Shown here in pieces: positions 22,475 through 54,082 of a stretch of DNA of 64,000 bases. Origin of the DNA: Nocardioidaceae bacterium SCSIO 66511. Lineage in GTDB: Bacteria > Actinomycetota > Actinomycetes > Propionibacteriales > Nocardioidaceae. The stretch is from contig CP095846.1 in NCBI GenBank assembly GCA_023100825.1, positions 558,001 to 622,000 of the forward strand. The letters are read 5' to 3'. The notes under the pieces were generated by a model, which had not been told where the DNA came from, made no database searches, and worked only from the letters and a program-made list of their open reading frames with translations. A program made the translations under genes and the position numbers. Each line of letters begins with the position of its first letter. Position 1 is the first letter of the stretch.

Positions 22475-22828
22475 GGGCCGGGTGGTTCATGTGGCCGACT
22501 CCGATGAGCAGAAGTGCACAGGCCTCTTAGCCTGCCGGGAGCCGACTGGGCGTCCACCCGTCCGCTCCGCCGGTTGCTCCTTTCACAGTTCCCCCGCCTA
22601 CTTCGGTTGCGTCCTTCATCGTTTCCCCACCGCTGCGGTTCTCTTCTTTGGCGGCGACGACGCCGGGTACGCGACTGGTGGCCGCCTTCCCGCGACCATC
22701 CCGCCCCATTTTCCCTGGGACCTTCACAGTTTCCGCACTTCGCCACGATCCCGTTTTCCCAACAAAACAAGGTGATTCGACCCTCTCAGCTCTTGCTCCT
22801 CGAACTTCTGTGCGATACAATAGGTTCC
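22475..22828. other. 354-base intergenic region with pyrimidine-rich repeats
   Basis: I see no gene here. Three imperfect copies of a motif resembling CTTCACAGTTTCCCC occur near 22582, 22615 and 22722, with further TTTTCCC runs. The right end contains TACAAT at 22815-22820, a good -10 element for the following HNH gene. Confidence 0.4.
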
Positions 22829-24313
22829 ATGTTCGAACCGCAGACCTACACCCGCCTCCACGATCAGGCGCGGCAGGCTGCGGACGCTTCCGAGCTCATT
22901 GGCCTCGCGACCGATGAGCAGCTGTGCCAGTCGTTGCGTGACCTGCAAGCGGCGTTGGATTTGCTCGACGGGGTACGCGCCTCGCTGTTCGCGCAGCTGA
23001 AAGAGTCTGAGGCCCACAAGTCCGACGGTGCGTCCACGGTCGCTGGGTGGGCTCGCCAAGAGTTGCGCATGGGGTTGGGTGAGTCGCGGCGGCACACCAA
23101 AGCCGGACAGACCTTGAAGACGTTGCCGAAGGTCGCCGCCGCTCTGGATGCCGGTCAGATTCGGGGTACGCATGTCGACGAGTTCACCGTCGGGGTCACC
23201 AAAGTCGGTGCGGACATCATGAGCGACCTGCAAGACGTCCTCGTCCCACTCGCACGGAACTGTGAGCCGCGTGATCTGCGGGTCGCGATCAACGAGCTGA
23301 ACGACATCGTGAACTGTGAAGAACGCGATAAGGCGTATCAGCGGGGGATGAACAAACGCGACATCCGGGTCGACAAATGCGGTGACGGGTTTTATGTGTC
23401 GGGGATGCTCGACCCCGTCACCGGAGCAAAGTTCGCCCGATGGGCCAAAACCGTGTCAATGCCTGAGTACGACGGCGACGACCGCGCACCGTCCGACCGG
23501 AGGGTCGACGGACTCGGACGGATGCTCGACGACCAAAACACCCCACCCCCGACCGAACAGCAGCAGCCGGCAGATAAGCAGTCCGAGCAGTCCGCCGACG
23601 AGCAGCCTGGTGAGTCATCCGAGCAGGAGCCGTCGAGGCCGCGTCGGCGCGCGGACACCACTCTGTTGGTCCTGGCCGACCTCGAAACCCTGCTGCGTCT
23701 GCCTGGTGCACGTCCGGCGACGTTGGTCGGGTTCGGCCCCATCGGGCCGCAACTGCTGGGCTACCTCACCTGCGGCGCCGACACGTCGGGCATCCTCACC
23801 CACGGCACGACGAACGGCCCGGTCCCGCAGGCCAACATCCTGAACGTCGGGCGTACCAGCCGCCTCGCCACGACAGCGCAACGCAAAGCGATCACCGCCA
23901 GACAAGACGGCATCTGCGCCAACCCCGGCTGCGGCTCCACCTTCCTGGAGTTCCACCACGTCAACTGGTGGAACCGCGACGGCGGGCGTACCGACCTGTC
24001 CAATTTGGTCGGGATCTGCGGCGGCTGCCACCACCTCGTCCACCAGAACAAGCTGATCATCAAAGCCGACGGCCACGGCGGGTTCACATTCCACCGCTCC
24101 ACCGGCGCCGTGATCGACGACCACGCCCGCATCACGAAACAACGCATCCGCGACCTCATCGCCAAAATCCGCCACACCGCCGAAACCGGCGACGAGCCCG
24201 AACCATCGGTACCGAAACCACGGATCGACGCTAGCTGGCTCACCCCACTCACACCAGACCAACGCTCACCCGGCGAGCAACACCTCTACGCACACCTCAC
24301 CCACCGCACCTAG
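22829..24313 (+). CDS. DUF222-HNH endonuclease (13E12-repeat type)
   Basis: This 494-residue protein belongs to the DUF222/13E12 family abundant in actinobacteria. The N-terminal helical DUF222 region (about 15-240) is followed by a low-complexity Gln/Glu/Pro linker (DQNTPPPTEQQQPADKQSEQ). A C-terminal HNH nuclease follows, with paired cysteines (GICANPGC, GICGGC), EFHHVNWW and a final HHLVHQNKL. The DNA target is unknown; members multiply in genomes and may be selfish or repair-linked. The start at 22829 lies eight bases after TACAAT with no ribosome site, suggesting leaderless translation. A strong hairpin follows the gene. Confidence 0.88.
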   Translation: MFEPQTYTRLHDQARQAADASELIGLATDEQLCQSLRDLQAALDLLDGVRASLFAQLKESEAHKSDGASTVAGWARQELRMGLGESRRHTKAGQTLKTLPKVAAALDAGQIRGTHVDEFTVGVTKVGADIMSDLQDVLVPLARNCEPRDLRVAINELNDIVNCEERDKAYQRGMNKRDIRVDKCGDGFYVSGMLDPVTGAKFARWAKTVSMPEYDGDDRAPSDRRVDGLGRMLDDQNTPPPTEQQQPADKQSEQSADEQPGESSEQEPSRPRRRADTTLLVLADLETLLRLPGARPATLVGFGPIGPQLLGYLTCGADTSGILTHGTTNGPVPQANILNVGRTSRLATTAQRKAITARQDGICANPGCGSTFLEFHHVNWWNRDGGRTDLSNLVGICGGCHHLVHQNKLIIKADGHGGFTFHRSTGAVIDDHARITKQRIRDLIAKIRHTAETGDEPEPSVPKPRIDASWLTPLTPDQRSPGEQHLYAHLTHRT

Positions 24314-42274: not shown

Positions 42275-43072
42275 ATGGCGACGGAGATTCCGGCGGCACG
42301 GCTGGAGCGGCTGCGTGAGCTCGTCGACCGGCGCGGGGTCGTTTCTCTGAAGCAGGCGCAGGAAGCGCTCGATGTTTCGGTGATGACGGTTCGCCGCGAC
42401 TTCGCCGCGCTCGAGGAGCTCGGTGTCGTACGCCGGACCCGTGGCGGGGTGGTCGGTGTAGGGCGGGTCGTTCCGGATACGTCGTACGCCGATCGCAAGG
42501 ATCGCGAGGTCGACGCGAAGTCCACGATCGGGCGGGCCGCCGCCGGGCTCGTCGAGGACGGCGACACGATCTTCCTCAGCGGCGGGACGACCTGTCTCGC
42601 GATGGCTCGGGCACTCGCCTCGACCAAGGGTGTGACCGTGGTGACCAACTCTCTCGACGCGCTCGCCGTCCTGGTACCGATGCCGGAGCTCACGGTGATC
42701 GGCACCGGCGGGCATGCGAGCGGCCGCAACAACGACATGACCGGGCCGGTGGCGGAGTCGATGATCGCCGGACTGCGTGCGACGAAGGCATTCATCGGCG
42801 CCTCGGGCCTGACACCCGACGGTGTGTTCAACGCAGACCTCGGGCGAGCTTCGATCGACCGGGTGATGTCGGAGGCGGCGAACGAGACGGTCGTCCTGTC
42901 CGATCACACGAAGATCGGAGCATCGGCGTTCGCCCTCGTCACGGCGCTGAGCGGTGTCGACAGCGTCGTCACCGACAAGACCCTGCGCAAGGCCGAGCGC
43001 GAATGGCTCACAGCGGAGGACGTTTCGGTCCTCGTCGCGCGGGCGGGTACGCGACTCGACGACGCCGGGTGA
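42275..43072 (+). CDS. DeoR/GlpR-family transcriptional regulator
   Basis: This 265-residue repressor has an N-terminal DeoR helix-turn-helix (VVSLKQAQEALDVSVMTVRR) and a sugar-phosphate-sensing DeoRC domain (FLSGGTTCLAMARAL, VVLSDHTKIG). Members of this family are typically released from DNA by phosphorylated sugars, which suits a phosphate-ester import operon. GAGAGGA lies eight bases before the ATG. It is the first gene of the unit and is followed 74 bases later by the phytase gene. Confidence 0.9.
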   Translation: MATEIPAARLERLRELVDRRGVVSLKQAQEALDVSVMTVRRDFAALEELGVVRRTRGGVVGVGRVVPDTSYADRKDREVDAKSTIGRAAAGLVEDGDTIFLSGGTTCLAMARALASTKGVTVVTNSLDALAVLVPMPELTVIGTGGHASGRNNDMTGPVAESMIAGLRATKAFIGASGLTPDGVFNADLGRASIDRVMSEAANETVVLSDHTKIGASAFALVTALSGVDSVVTDKTLRKAEREWLTAEDVSVLVARAGTRLDDAG

Positions 43073-43146
43073 CAGTCAGGCGATCGGTCCGGTTCGGGTC
43101 GTTCGGGTCGCCCTTCTCGAATCAAACGAATCAGGAGGAAGGACCC

Positions 43147-44526
43147 ATGCTCAAAGCAGGCACGGGAGTGGTCGTCTTCGCGGCCGTCGTTTCACTGACA
43201 GGTGGAGGCAGTGTCTCGGCGATGCCGGGCAATCATTCGGGCGCCGCGGAGATCGGTTCGGTGGCCGCGGAGTTCGAGACCCGGGCGGTATTCGACGACG
43301 AGGCCGGTGGCTTCGCCGACACCGACGACCCGGCGATCTGGGTGAACCCGGAGCACCGTGATCGCAGTGTCGTGATCGTCACCCAGAAGGAGGCCGGGCT
43401 CGTCGTCTTCGATCTCGGCGGGAATCCGCTGCAGGAGCTCCCGGCTCCGCCCGCACCAGGCGATGGGGATGCACCGGGTCGCCTCAACAACGTCGATCTC
43501 GTCTACGGGGTGCCGCTCGGCGACGACGAGGAGCCCACCGACCTTGCCGTCGTGAGCGACCGCGGCCGTGACCAGGTGCGGATCTACGCGATCGATCCGG
43601 AAGCGGCGGACGACGGCGATGCGCCCTTGCGGGATGTGACGGCCGACGATGTGCCGTACGTGTTCTCCGCCGATCAGGACGAGGTCAACGGCGAGGCGAC
43701 CGCGTACGGCCTGGCCGCCTGGCAGGACGGCGATCAGGCGTACGCCGCCGTCAGTCGCAACAACGACACGGCCCTGGCACAGGTTCGCCTCGAGCCGACC
43801 GACGATGGTCACGTCACGTACGAGACCGTCGATCGGCTGAACCTGCCTTCCAGCTTCGACCTGCCCGACGGCACCCGATGGACACCGTGTGGCGATCCCG
43901 GGGAGCTGCCGCAGGTCGAGGGCATGGTGGTCGATCGCGATCGTGGAGTGCTCTATGCGGCGCAGGAGAACGTCGCCCTCTGGCGGGTTCCGCTCGACGA
44001 GGAGGAGTTCGGTTCTGTGCGCATCGTCGACAAGGTACGCGAGTACGGCATCCCGTGGACGTACGACCCGAACGCGGACGAGGAGTGCGCGGTTGACTAC
44101 GCCGACGACCCGGGCTTCGGAGGCAAGCATCTCGCTGCCGATGCCGAGGGGTTGACGATCTACGACGCGGGTGACGGCGACGGGCAGCTCGTTGCCTCCA
44201 GCCAGGGCGACAACACGTTCGCGACCTACGACCGTGCCGCGGGCAACGCGTTCACGGGATCGTTCGAGATCGTCGACGGTGACGCGACCGACGGTGTGCA
44301 GGAGTGCGACGGCGCCGACTTGACGAGCGCCGACCTCGGCGGTGCGTTCGAGGACGGACTGCTGGTCGTACAGGACGGAGACAACACCCCTGACGTACCC
44401 GGCGACGGTGGCGAGGCACGCGACAACTCGAACGTGAAGTTCGTGAGCTGGGGCGAGATCGCGCCCGGGCTTGCGCGCCGAGCCCACCTCGGATCACATC
44501 GTCACTCGAAGGGACATGCACGATGA
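43147..44526 (+). CDS. Secreted beta-propeller phytase
   Basis: This 459-residue enzyme begins with a Sec signal ending near SVSA (residues 22-25). The mature protein carries the beta-propeller phytase landmarks: ADTDDPAIWV (57-66), GLVVFDLGG, LNNVDLVYG, QVEGMVVDRDRGVLYAAQEN, AADAEGLTIY and LVASSQGDNTFATYDRA. These supply the acidic calcium-binding residues. The family hydrolyses phytate at neutral pH to lower inositol phosphates, typically a trisphosphate. AGGAGGAAGGA precedes the ATG at 43147. Its stop overlaps the start of the ABC binding protein (ATGA), a direct link between extracellular hydrolysis and uptake. Confidence 0.92.
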   Translation: MLKAGTGVVVFAAVVSLTGGGSVSAMPGNHSGAAEIGSVAAEFETRAVFDDEAGGFADTDDPAIWVNPEHRDRSVVIVTQKEAGLVVFDLGGNPLQELPAPPAPGDGDAPGRLNNVDLVYGVPLGDDEEPTDLAVVSDRGRDQVRIYAIDPEAADDGDAPLRDVTADDVPYVFSADQDEVNGEATAYGLAAWQDGDQAYAAVSRNNDTALAQVRLEPTDDGHVTYETVDRLNLPSSFDLPDGTRWTPCGDPGELPQVEGMVVDRDRGVLYAAQENVALWRVPLDEEEFGSVRIVDKVREYGIPWTYDPNADEECAVDYADDPGFGGKHLAADAEGLTIYDAGDGDGQLVASSQGDNTFATYDRAAGNAFTGSFEIVDGDATDGVQECDGADLTSADLGGAFEDGLLVVQDGDNTPDVPGDGGEARDNSNVKFVSWGEIAPGLARRAHLGSHRHSKGHAR

Positions 44527-51151: not shown

Positions 51152-52107
51152 GTGCGGCGTACGCGGCGGCAATTCTGCCGCTGGTGGTGGCGGGTGCGTT
51201 CTCGATCGTGACCGGATTGAACGACGGCGGCACGCTGCTCTCGGCCGGTCTCAAGGTGCGCGGGTTGCACTTCCCCGTCGCGGTCGGCGTTCTCGCCATC
51301 GCGCTTGTCGTGGTGCCCATCATCGTCGGTACCTACGTCGCAAGCATGTTCAGCGAACGGATGGTCTCGTTCACCGGTTCCGGCGCCTCAGGCGTACACG
51401 CGGCCGTGACCATCGCGATCGTCGTCGCGCTTGCCACGACGAGTTGGCTCGCATCTCGTGGTAAGCCCACCAGCCTGACCCTTGCGACCGTCGGCGCTCT
51501 CGTCGGAGCCGGCCTCGGACTCGGGCTGCCCGTGTCGGGGCGAACGGTCGTGACCGTGTTGCTCGCCGGTATCGCCGCGCCACTTGCCGGCGGACTCGTC
51601 GGGAATGCGATGGTCCGGATACTCGGCCGGATCTCCTTGACCGGCTCGCTGCGCCGCGTACACCGGCTCGCGTTCACCGGGCAGTGCATCGCGTACGCGG
51701 CCGGCGACGGCCAGAAGATGTACGCGATCTTCGCGCTCACCGGCGGAGCGACTGGCTCGACCGCAATCCATCCGTGGATGATCCCCGTCGCAAGCGTCCT
51801 GTTCGTGGTCGGCGCGGTCGGCGGTCTTGCAGGGACCGGGCGCGCCCTCAACTCGGCGCTCGCCCCGGTACGTCCCGTGCACGCCGTGTCGGCCGAGCTC
51901 GGCTCGGCGGGCGCGGTGTCGGGCTGCGCGGCACTCGGATTCCCGGTCAGCATGACCCAAGCCGTCGCCGGAGGCATCGTCGGCTCGGGTCTCGACCGCG
52001 CTCGCTGGCCGGCGGTCTTGCGTCTGGCGGGAGCATGGATCGTCACGCTTCCAGTCAGCCTGCTCGCCGCCGGTATTGGCGTCCTTACCATGCGGACGAT
52101 GCTGTGA
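51148..52107 (+). CDS. Divergent PiT-family inorganic phosphate transporter
   Basis: This 319-residue membrane protein has about nine hydrophobic segments. It keeps two PiT repeats in altered form: GLNDGGTLLSAGL near residue 25 where GxNDxANA is usual, and AAGDGQKMYAIFAL near 190 where a GANDxQKxxG pattern is usual. The second Asn is changed to Gly. It lies between phosphatase genes and a DUF47 gene, the usual PiT partner, so phosphate transport is likely. Direction and ion coupling cannot be told from sequence. Start and stop overlap neighbours (ATGA, GTGA). Confidence 0.8.
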   Translation: MSAAYAAAILPLVVAGAFSIVTGLNDGGTLLSAGLKVRGLHFPVAVGVLAIALVVVPIIVGTYVASMFSERMVSFTGSGASGVHAAVTIAIVVALATTSWLASRGKPTSLTLATVGALVGAGLGLGLPVSGRTVVTVLLAGIAAPLAGGLVGNAMVRILGRISLTGSLRRVHRLAFTGQCIAYAAGDGQKMYAIFALTGGATGSTAIHPWMIPVASVLFVVGAVGGLAGTGRALNSALAPVRPVHAVSAELGSAGAVSGCAALGFPVSMTQAVAGGIVGSGLDRARWPAVLRLAGAWIVTLPVSLLAAGIGVLTMRTML

Positions 52108-52742
52108 GCGCGGTGCGCAGGCTGCTGAGCCTCACCACCGGCCGGATCGACGGCACCCTCGTCAGCGCGCTGTCCGGCCAACTGCACGCGGCGCAGGAAG
52201 GTGCCGATCTCGCCCTCGCCATGACGAGTGGAGCGCTGGCTGCCGCTGAGGCGCGCGAGCAGATGCGGCTGACCGAACATCGCGGCGACCGCGAACGCGG
52301 CCGCCTCGTCGGCGGTCTCAGCAGGGCGCTCGTCACGCCGATGGACCGCGAAGACCTGTTCCGATTGTCTCGCTCGATCGATGACGTACTCGACACGCTG
52401 CGCGACTTCGTACGGGAGTCCGACCTGTTCGGAATGGGCGACCAGGCTGATCTCGCGCCGATCCTGGACCAGATCCGGGCCGGTCTCTCCGCGCTATCCG
52501 ACGCCGTCGACGACCTGCTCGCAAACCCCGATCGGGTGGCTGCCAGTGCACTGGCTGCGAAGAAGGCAGGCGGCGGCGTACGCCGCCTGTACGAGGACGA
52601 GATCGCCCGCATCCTCGCCGACGAGAACGGCGTACTCGCTCTGCGCAAGCATGAGCTGGCACGCCGGCTTGACGACGTCGGCAGGCAGCTCAGCCAGGCC
52701 GCCGACTCGATCGCCGACGGTGCGATGAAACGCTGGCATTAG
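52104..52742 (+). CDS. DUF47/PhoU-like protein, PiT partner
   Basis: This 212-residue all-helical protein resembles the DUF47 (PhoU-related) family that regulates PiT permeases. It has heptad-like regions and repeated Asp/Glu-rich turns (DREDLFRLSRSIDDVLDTLR). It starts with GTG at 52104, overlapping the permease stop. It is the last gene of the operon; no clear terminator follows. The function is inferred from family and context. Confidence 0.78.
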   Translation: MSAVRRLLSLTTGRIDGTLVSALSGQLHAAQEGADLALAMTSGALAAAEAREQMRLTEHRGDRERGRLVGGLSRALVTPMDREDLFRLSRSIDDVLDTLRDFVRESDLFGMGDQADLAPILDQIRAGLSALSDAVDDLLANPDRVAASALAAKKAGGGVRRLYEDEIARILADENGVLALRKHELARRLDDVGRQLSQAADSIADGAMKRWH

Positions 52743-53308
52743 TTAGATCCTCGGCCCGATCGAGTACTGACACGCGCGCTCGCGGTGCAGACGCGTAGGA
52801 GCGGTCGATCTGCGTCGCGGATCGGTTTGAACTCCTGACGACGAACATGCCCGGTGCCCATTGAATGCGTAGGTGACCGAGCACCTCGGCGAGGACAGCT
52901 ACGGCCCGGTACAGCACGGTGAGCGAAAGTCGATCGCGTTACCTCGACGCGCACCGCTAGGGTCTGTTACGAAGTCGGCGTCGATCAGTGAGCGGGATAT
53001 CCGCGCCCGGTCCGGCAAGGCGTGGGAGCGAAGTAGTAGTCGGTCTCTCCGGCGAGCGACCGCAACGCAGCCGGTCGGGATGCGGGATCACGCGAACCGG
53101 CGACGACTTTGGTAACAGGCCCTAGCCTTCTACGGTCGATGTGGCGAGGCCGAGTCACGCGATTCTTGCATGCGCGAGTTGGTCACGCGCGCTCATTGCC
53201 CGTGATATGTACGACGTTCCTGCCCGGGAGGCGATGGTGGTTAGGCAGTGACGTGCAGCGGTTCAGAGCGCGCGGTCTGAGGTCTCTCGAGAGGATGTGA
53301 GGAATGCG
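52743..53308. other. 566-base region without genes, containing a MITE
   Basis: No convincing coding sequence is visible. The central part (52957-53125) is a small inverted-repeat element described separately. The left flank shows nothing I recognise. The right flank (53126-53308) carries the ribosome site GAGGA at 53299-53303 of the next gene. Confidence 0.5.
52957..53125. mobile_element. 161-bp IS5-like MITE with CTAG target duplication
   Basis: The terminal repeats GGTCTGTTACGAAGTCG (from 52961) and GGCCTGTTACCAAAGTCG (reverse strand, from 53121) match at nearly all positions, allowing one gap. Both ends are flanked by CTAG (52957-52960, 53122-53125), the target duplication expected for some IS5-group elements (YTAR). 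The 161-base interior has no transposase. It therefore fits a miniature inverted-repeat transposable element mobilised by an IS5-type transposase elsewhere. Confidence 0.75.
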
Positions 53309-54082
53309 ATGCCGGTCAGCGCCGGACAAGTACTGCCCTACCGCGACTATGGAGGCAACGGTCCACACATCGTTGCTCTGCACGGCCATTTCGGGAGCTC
53401 AGCGTCGTTCGGGGCACTGGCGGCCGCGCTGGATGAGAAGACGGCTCGGCTCACGGCGCCGGACCAGCGTGGCCACGGCTTCGCGCCGCGCGGAAGTGAT
53501 GCAAGCGTCGAGTCGTACCTGGCCCTGCTCGAGGCGTTTGTCGAGCACCACATTTCAGCGCCGGTGACGCTTTTCGGTCATTCGATGGGTGGCACCCACG
53601 CCATGCTCCTCGCGGAGCGCCGTCCCGATCTGGTCGGGGCGCTCGTCGTCGAGGATCAGCCGATGGTCGTCGGCTCGACGGTCCTCGACGTCACCGCGTG
53701 GCCGAGACGCTGGCCATCATTTCTGGCGCTCGCTGAGGATCTGCGTGGGCGCGGCATCGATGATCCGAGCTACTTCATACGTGATGCCTTGCGGTTCGCC
53801 GATGGTTGGGGTCTCGGTTTCGACCACGACGATATGGTCGAGTCGCAACGCAGGCTCGTCGGTGACTACTCGCGGAGTTGGCAGGCAATCCAGGTACCGA
53901 CCCTGCTCATTCGTGGTGCGGAGAGTTTCATCCTCGATGGGGACATGGCTGCCGAGATGATCACGATGCAGCCGAAAGCCGTGTTACGTGAGTTCGACGG
54001 GTGCGGGCACTGGGTCCATGACGATGACCCCGCCGGCGTCGCAGGCGCCGTACGCGAGTTCATCGCGAATGCGATCCGTTGA
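53309..54082 (+). CDS. Alpha/beta hydrolase (serine type)
   Basis: This 257-residue hydrolase has the oxyanion HGHFGSS, nucleophile elbow FGHSMGGTHAM with serine near residue 94, and a histidine in GCGHWVHDD. The acid is less obvious, near LIRGAESFILDG, where a Glu or Asp may serve. It could be an esterase, lactonase or C-C hydrolase. GAGGA lies five bases before the ATG at 53309. It stands alone between the MITE and a tRNA-like remnant. Confidence 0.82.
   Translation: MPVSAGQVLPYRDYGGNGPHIVALHGHFGSSASFGALAAALDEKTARLTAPDQRGHGFAPRGSDASVESYLALLEAFVEHHISAPVTLFGHSMGGTHAMLLAERRPDLVGALVVEDQPMVVGSTVLDVTAWPRRWPSFLALAEDLRGRGIDDPSYFIRDALRFADGWGLGFDHDDMVESQRRLVGDYSRSWQAIQVPTLLIRGAESFILDGDMAAEMITMQPKAVLREFDGCGHWVHDDDPAGVAGAVREFIANAIR

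Follow-up and report, generated by a model that had tools for sequence, protein, structure and literature searches.

A CTAG-bracketed 161-bp element in a Nocardioidaceae genome is a member of a widespread family whose defining feature is a conserved one-strand hairpin core, not the ends

The element in the window and its setting

Downstream of a DUF47 gene in the window (the whole 64,000-nt stretch of the Nocardioidaceae bacterium SCSIO 66511 genome that was analysed), two CTAG tetranucleotides at 52957-52960 and 53122-53125 bracket 161 bp in which no convincing gene is found. What is this sequence, how did it come to be there, and which part of it is kept? Its ends form an 18-nt terminal inverted repeat that is 89% complementary (52956-52973 against 53109-53126); we annotate the left, IS5-type arm at 52961-52978 on the plus strand and the right arm, which by inverted-repeat comparison has one base more than the left, at 53104-53121 on the minus strand. 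Exact matches to CTAGGGYCTGTTAC occur twice in the window, both at the ends of the element; four further matches carry three mismatches each, and shuffled sequence yields a mean of 3.4 for all such matches together. Open reading frames overlapping the element, for example one of 80 aa at 52873-53115, are taken as chance.

The segment 52957-53125, flanking CTAGs included, is a MITE, as a sequence-only reading of this DNA had proposed: it has inverted ends, is present in many copies and is mobile (see below). That reading also described the CTAG flanks and the near-matching ends correctly, but it missed the palindromy over the entire length. Taken as a whole, the insert forms an imperfect palindrome (-94 kcal/mol, z = -6.8, none of 200 shuffles being equally stable), that is, a single hairpin of ~168 nt, of which the ends are the most variable and the core, GGCAAGGC...CAACGCnGCC, the least variable part. 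On the evidence of ends, fold, copies and G.U bias we assign the element to the plus strand, the strand of hairpin conservation.

The upstream ORF (51684-52742, plus strand) has a Pfam match to DUF47 (PhoU_div) confined to residues 187-293 of 352, and the true start of the gene therefore probably lies further in. This gene stands behind a PHO4-type phosphate transporter. The sequence-only reading had placed the insertion directly after a phytase operon, which is loose: an ORF at 43003-44526 that we take by eye to be a beta-propeller phytase does lie upstream of this gene run, but the element begins 214 bp beyond the DUF47 stop (52742). Downstream follows an alpha/beta hydrolase gene (53297-54082, plus strand). 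Elsewhere in the window, at 24093-24188, a stretch of ~95 bp that flanks another copy of the element (L004) recurs, as it does at eight other places in the genome with 82-91% identity. Here it sits in the 3' part of an ORF (22514-24313) that we presume to be DUF222/HNH-like, and its recurrence is probably that of a protein family repeated in the genome and not of a repeat element.

Copies, empty sites and IS5-type ends

BLASTN against the organism's own genome (G000; 4.61 Mb, one contig), as the sequence-only reading had suggested for counting copies, returned about ten diverged copies, most of which match over the inner ~125 bp only. A covariance model built from eleven own-genome copies (R1) finds 14 full-length copies, the window copy included, and one shortened copy, which disposes of the notion that the sequence might be single-copy. 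The same model gives 42 matches in the sister species (G001), the only other genome of the genus compared; it has matches in 23 of 58 genomes of relatives, own included, and in 44 of 196 genomes sampled from the class (18 of 82 genera). At least 80 stretches in named genomes contain the core pattern: among the 80 listed, 75 hold an R1 match with E up to 0.001 (the others being L250, L263, L264, L297 and L305), and by title 33 are from Nocardioides and 19 from Gordonia, with Streptomyces, Frankia, Kribbella and Actinomadura among the rest. Of the 276 ends of 138 copies, 132 read CTAG, and lengths of 168-169 are the most frequent. Near-identical copies in several genomes, such as L043/L044 (98%), L071/L169 (99%) and L073/L175 (99%), point to recent amplification.

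Several variants were seen besides the modal type. Six are 200-236 nt long instead of 168 (L103, L104, L105, L090:2898-3099, L109 and L064), apparently because the hairpin is longer in its apical part. A contig labelled as a betaproteobacterial Ramlibacter MAG (L312) carries a copy of actinobacterial type that has CTAGGGCTTGTCTCC as one of its ends; the contig may be misbinned. Two half-elements of the sister species (L119, L120), considered as autonomous copies with a gene in the loop, proved to be cut-down copies beside ordinary genes.

Empty sites were sought by entering eight own copies as joined flanks against the sister genome. The site of L009 is cleanly empty there and reads as a single CTAG. 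Continuous empty counterparts exist for L003, with CTTG in place of the CAAG...CTTG that surrounds the copy and is thus inverted, not duplicated, and for L005, where no CTAG is recognisable; the counterpart of L002 is empty, diverged and less clear, and that of L010 is empty but untidy. The L006 site is occupied in both species, by L102 in the sister genome, the right end of which shows a short duplication of the arm, with GCGGAACCTCTTA present twice. L004 finds a match on one flank only. At the L008 site the sister species carries other DNA of ~1.1 kb with a 353-aa ORF (1099-2160 of L141, G001:C1:2202300-2205700), between genes that we take to be formamidopyrimidine-DNA-glycosylase-like and sulfurtransferase-like. 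The earlier suggestion to look for empty sites in relatives was therefore borne out cleanly by L009 and less tidily by L003 and L005; the window copy itself gives 34 matches to the sister genome, every one within the element and none in its flanks.

An IS5-type parent had likewise been guessed from the sequence. In relatives the guess was right: the copies L071 and L169 are identical over 23-24 bp to the ends of ~935-bp IS5 elements (L209, L210, L211, L225 and L226). IS5-family elements of 934-936 bp in three genomes (G044, G047 and G055) carry CTAGGGCGTGTCCTGCGGATCT at both ends, and L209, the member of this set that was domain-tested, encodes DUF4096 and DDE_Tnp_1 domains. A MITE on a Streptomyces plasmid, found via its end (L144), scores 79.6 bits with R1 and shares its ends with IS5-type L147 (18/18 and 17/18) and less exactly with L145 and L146 (15-16/18). 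A second end type, AGAGRTCGCGCGGATAGG, is found at one end each of IS5-type L224 (18/18) and L234 (17/18); their proteins, representing a more divergent transposase, fall under the DUF4096 cut-off and above that of DDE_Tnp_1, from which we infer another IS5 subgroup. Among the best 40 of 86 BLAST matches between MITE and IS5 loci, all lie at the element ends, within the outer ~24 bp (37 bp in one Streptomyces pair), and none extends to a shared interior such as would mark a deletion derivative. The identity with IS5 ends and the empty sites are thus directly supported in relatives, and insertion at CTAG by the cleanly empty site of L009.

For the window copy the guess of an IS5 parent holds in part. 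Positions 52960-52977 at its left end agree at 15 of 18 bases with one of the two ends of L212, an IS5 element from G042, but its own genome contains neither DUF4096 nor DDE_Tnp_1. Each domain has 0 matches in both genomes of the genus, so that the copies there look like orphans today; the parent transposase may have been lost. A search of these two genomes for a kilobase-scale IS bearing the commonest own ends (exact TAGGYCGTGTC) formed no pairs; once the copies already known, a shortened one and a half-copy were set aside, it left 6 and 9 matches against 5 and 7 for the reversed pattern as control. The copy-rich genomes G001, G006, G007 and G049 are without DUF4096, G057 with 23 copies has seven matches, and by eye no correlation was seen between copy number and DUF4096 transposases.

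The core and its pairing strand

The arms are usable in 131 of the 138 copies and fall into 32 end clusters. Behind different IS5-type ends stands one and the same core (52977-53102, plus strand, as delimited by own-genome BLAST, R1 and covariation), and this core has no match to the IS5 loci examined, again among the best 40 of 86 matches. The clearest case is L006, which has another end type: its central ~68 nt are identical to those of the window copy (53011-53078, plus strand, coordinates read off the alignment) at 66 of 68 positions, and the outermost parts at only 12/27 and 10/25. L006 and L102, occupying the same site, are alike in their outer parts (23/28 and 20/26) and agree in the centre at only 47/67. 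L096/L090 repeat the mosaic pattern (60/64 inside, 12/28 and 8/27 outside) and L099/L082 do so less sharply (57/64 inside, 15/28 and 9/27 outside). These figures come from direct alignments; column-based outer identities were discarded as unreliable because of alignment shifts. The copies are mosaics, which shows that core and ends have been exchanged by recombination.

In an alignment fitted to the model, two-sided changes occur in 58 of 60 pairs, and the covariation score is 0.672 as against at most 0.088 for slid structures (102 of the 138 copies). Taken alone, covariation in the outer arms could arise from both ends tracking one transposase. Compared without the model, and with seven copies dropped for poor arms or Ns, the arms contain 166 G.U to 17 A.C on the strand defined by the core, or 85:16 when each cluster and position is counted once; the three outermost target positions of the same copies, a built-in control, give 24:25. 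G.U outnumbers A.C in 22 of the 32 end clusters, is outnumbered in one and equals it in nine; the second-largest cluster (15 copies) shows no bias (4 G.U, 5 A.C). Orientation by CAAGGC alone leads to 160:18 on 118 copies, with the 20 copies lacking the motif set aside (21:4). A second set, for which the search pattern gave the orientation, comprises 61 copies in named genomes with pairing at 15 or more of the 20 arm positions; it yields 69:13 in the arms and 15:21 at the four terminal positions. This set is largely, not wholly, independent, L271 and L057 being one and the same Kribbella copy, and two of its members, L255 and L264, come from outside the actinobacteria. In the inner stem the ratio is 284:23 (fitted alignment), with 82 of the G.U cells in one column where G.U is the usual pair. 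Inner columns with A-T as the usual pair have 52 G.U against 2 A.C, and deamination of C alone is thus insufficient as a cause. With genes called by an ad hoc ORF heuristic, the bias is 20:3 in sense-only copies, 31:3 in antisense-only copies and 11:2 in copies that have neither the end nor the start of a gene within 60 nt.

The near-invariant bases are concentrated at an internal loop and next to it (C-AA-GG opposite CAAC-G); the GGCAAGGC motif at 53014-53021 makes up the 5' side of this loop and the CAACGCAGCC motif at 53063-53072 its 3' side, both on the plus strand. Both motifs also stand out in the cross-phylum alignment A5, where the first is nearly invariant, the members of A5 having been picked partly by that motif. 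Over all inner columns conservation is no higher in unpaired (0.74) than in paired positions (0.75). By the slid controls on the fitted alignment and by the model-free G.U bias, compensatory changes go beyond relatedness, as is asked of a structured RNA. The sequence-only reading had held out a single-copy sequence, conserved as part of a regulatory RNA, as the alternative to a MITE; a conserved structured RNA is still conceivable, because the copies do show one-strand structural conservation. Ten copies searched against Rfam 15 matched no family at gathering score, the best hit on the window copy having E = 0.77. A requirement of the transposase for double-stranded DNA does not predict a G.U bias, and a folded single strand does. 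Since G.U exceeds A.C on the core strand and not in the target bases, the hairpin apparently serves in single-stranded form, whether as RNA or as ssDNA.

Our preferred reading, to which we give a probability of about 0.8, is a non-autonomous IS5-type MITE that is moved in trans and has a folded, one-strand core shared across IS5 lineages and acting as a single strand. An IS5-family transposase would recognise the terminal repeats and move the 161-bp element between CTAG targets; the ~120-nt core folds on one strand into a bulged hairpin maintained by base-pair changes; recombination exchanges core and ends, so that copies with ends of different IS5 lineages share the core; and the core, most likely as a short RNA, would aid the spread or the tolerance of the element. 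RNA is our first choice because tolerance of G.U is typical of RNA and because near-invariant bases round an internal loop are seen in protein-bound RNAs. That the conserved strand is instead DNA, forming a hairpin on one strand that promotes spread or shields the element while it is replicated or transposed, we consider rather unlikely: the independence of the bias from host gene orientation and the lack of a known transcript would suit it, and G.T pairs stabilise ssDNA hairpins as well, but we know of no need for such a hairpin in IS5-type DDE transposition.

Three further accounts were considered. An ordinary MITE with a neutral passenger core, its arms pairing because both ends match one transposase and its G.U bias reflecting differences between left and right IS5 ends, would fit the end identity with IS5 elements, the unbiased second-largest cluster and the recurrence of G.U positions within the largest one, where cells are not independent; it is already strained, and improbable in our view, given that the inner stem away from the ends is biased and covarying too, that most end clusters lean the same way, and that the core survives complete replacement of the ends. 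Slightly less credit still goes to template switching or conversion between the arms (quasi-palindrome correction), which would make them alike without selection: the compensatory-looking arm changes in the orthologous pair L006/L102 speak for it, but it predicts neither a core-oriented excess of G.U over A.C nor a conserved internal loop. Least probable of all is a REP/YPAL-like regulatory element of host 3' UTRs, kept for mRNA stabilisation or termination. It draws on the 24 of 55 genus copies with a stop codon at the CTAG (ad hoc ORF heuristic), a position that needs no function because CTAG supplies TAG and insertion there spares the gene; purifying selection would leave over just such insertions. 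Relative to the upstream gene the copies lie in mixed directions, 13 being sense only, 16 antisense only and 7 both, and this, like the empty sites in the sister species, also argues against it.

Matches beyond Actinomycetota and relation to known systems

Pattern matches in three genomes labelled as other phyla (L255, L264 and L305) form long hairpins round the same internal loop; a Xanthomonas match (L297) does not form the hairpin and was taken as chance. A cross-phylum model (R2) that includes one copy from each of these three sources has 5 matches in Noviherbaspirillum, 13 in a Phycisphaerae MAG, 2 in a Chitinophagaceae MAG and 3 in Gordonia, MAG labels being taken as given, and 136, the highest number seen, in the 5.0-Mb genome of Frankia sp. 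CIT1 (G252). R1, which derives from the window genome only, was run on the loci of 15 of the 20 non-actinobacterial R2 matches (45 kb) and recovered 13 with E up to 0.024: strongly in Noviherbaspirillum (3/3, down to 1.7e-10), moderately in the planctomycete (9/10) and weakly in Chitinophagaceae (1/2), L385 and L367 being missed. In a 616-kb search it found L255 at 3.8e-9, and L264 and L305 not at 0.001. Across phyla two-sided covariation is present in 24 of 29 pairs (fitted alignment), and the non-actinobacterial arms have G.U:A.C of 6:0, 7:0 and 2:1. In Noviherbaspirillum three near-identical copies occupy different sites; apparent 4-bp duplications (TTCA, TAAA; read by eye) accompany some of the planctomycete copies and not others. 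The 24 DDE_Tnp_1 loci in the betaproteobacterial, planctomycete and Bacteroidota genomes were compared with the elements present there, and none showed an IS with matching ends. Searches of phages and plasmids with L005, and of plasmids with L255, L305 and L371, gave no match; the exact core pattern was not found in viral contigs, nor a match to the 63-nt betaproteobacterial core in E. coli genomes.

The likeness of these cores may be homology or convergence on a shared recogniser. Tentatively, and at somewhat less than even odds, we entertain a self-standing module, active as single-stranded RNA or DNA, for which unrelated transposon ends serve as vehicles across phyla. If this were so, a recogniser common to bacteria would be needed, and the core would have to pay its way by helping the element that carries it. 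The presence of the same core in distant bacterial groups suggests that the core may serve a purpose in its own right. In the usual view a MITE is a gutted transposon that its conserved ends hold together; in this family the ends can be exchanged, and what persists is the folded middle, on one strand, through such exchanges and apparently in distant bacteria too. Should the core act as RNA or ssDNA, it would represent a large, widespread non-coding class unmatched by Rfam, judging by the 44 of 196 sampled class genomes, and why bacterial MITEs form hairpins would become a testable question.

No earlier account of the family was recognised in the literature searched, which was mostly literature outside subscription. 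Structured RNAs of Rfam resemble it in their conserved structure with compensatory changes, none being matched by the ten copies. YPAL or RU-2 (167-168 bp) and ERIC of enterobacteria are long hairpins with terminal TA and TA target duplication (PMC2759123, as far as seen), and RU-2 shares with our element the size class, the long hairpin and the TA at the ends. Kinship by sequence was rejected: over every second copy the best score was 28, while shuffles averaged 26.8 and reached 42. The parts of PMC2759123 consulted do not speak of conserved pairing on one strand. REPs and REPINs of RAYT transposases are palindromic, and a TAG stop codon frequently comes from their tag (PMC3733652, in the parts consulted); according to the same parts REPs are 20-40 bp long and tagged on one side by GTAG or CGTC, whereas here 168 nt carry IS5-type ends on both sides. 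The closest likeness is to IS5-family MITEs and their DUF4096/DDE_Tnp_1 parents, which have the same CTAG target and, in some copies, identical ends, the MITEs being non-coding as well. The family described here differs in a core that is unmatched in the IS5 loci examined, is more conserved than the ends and is common to several IS5 lineages.
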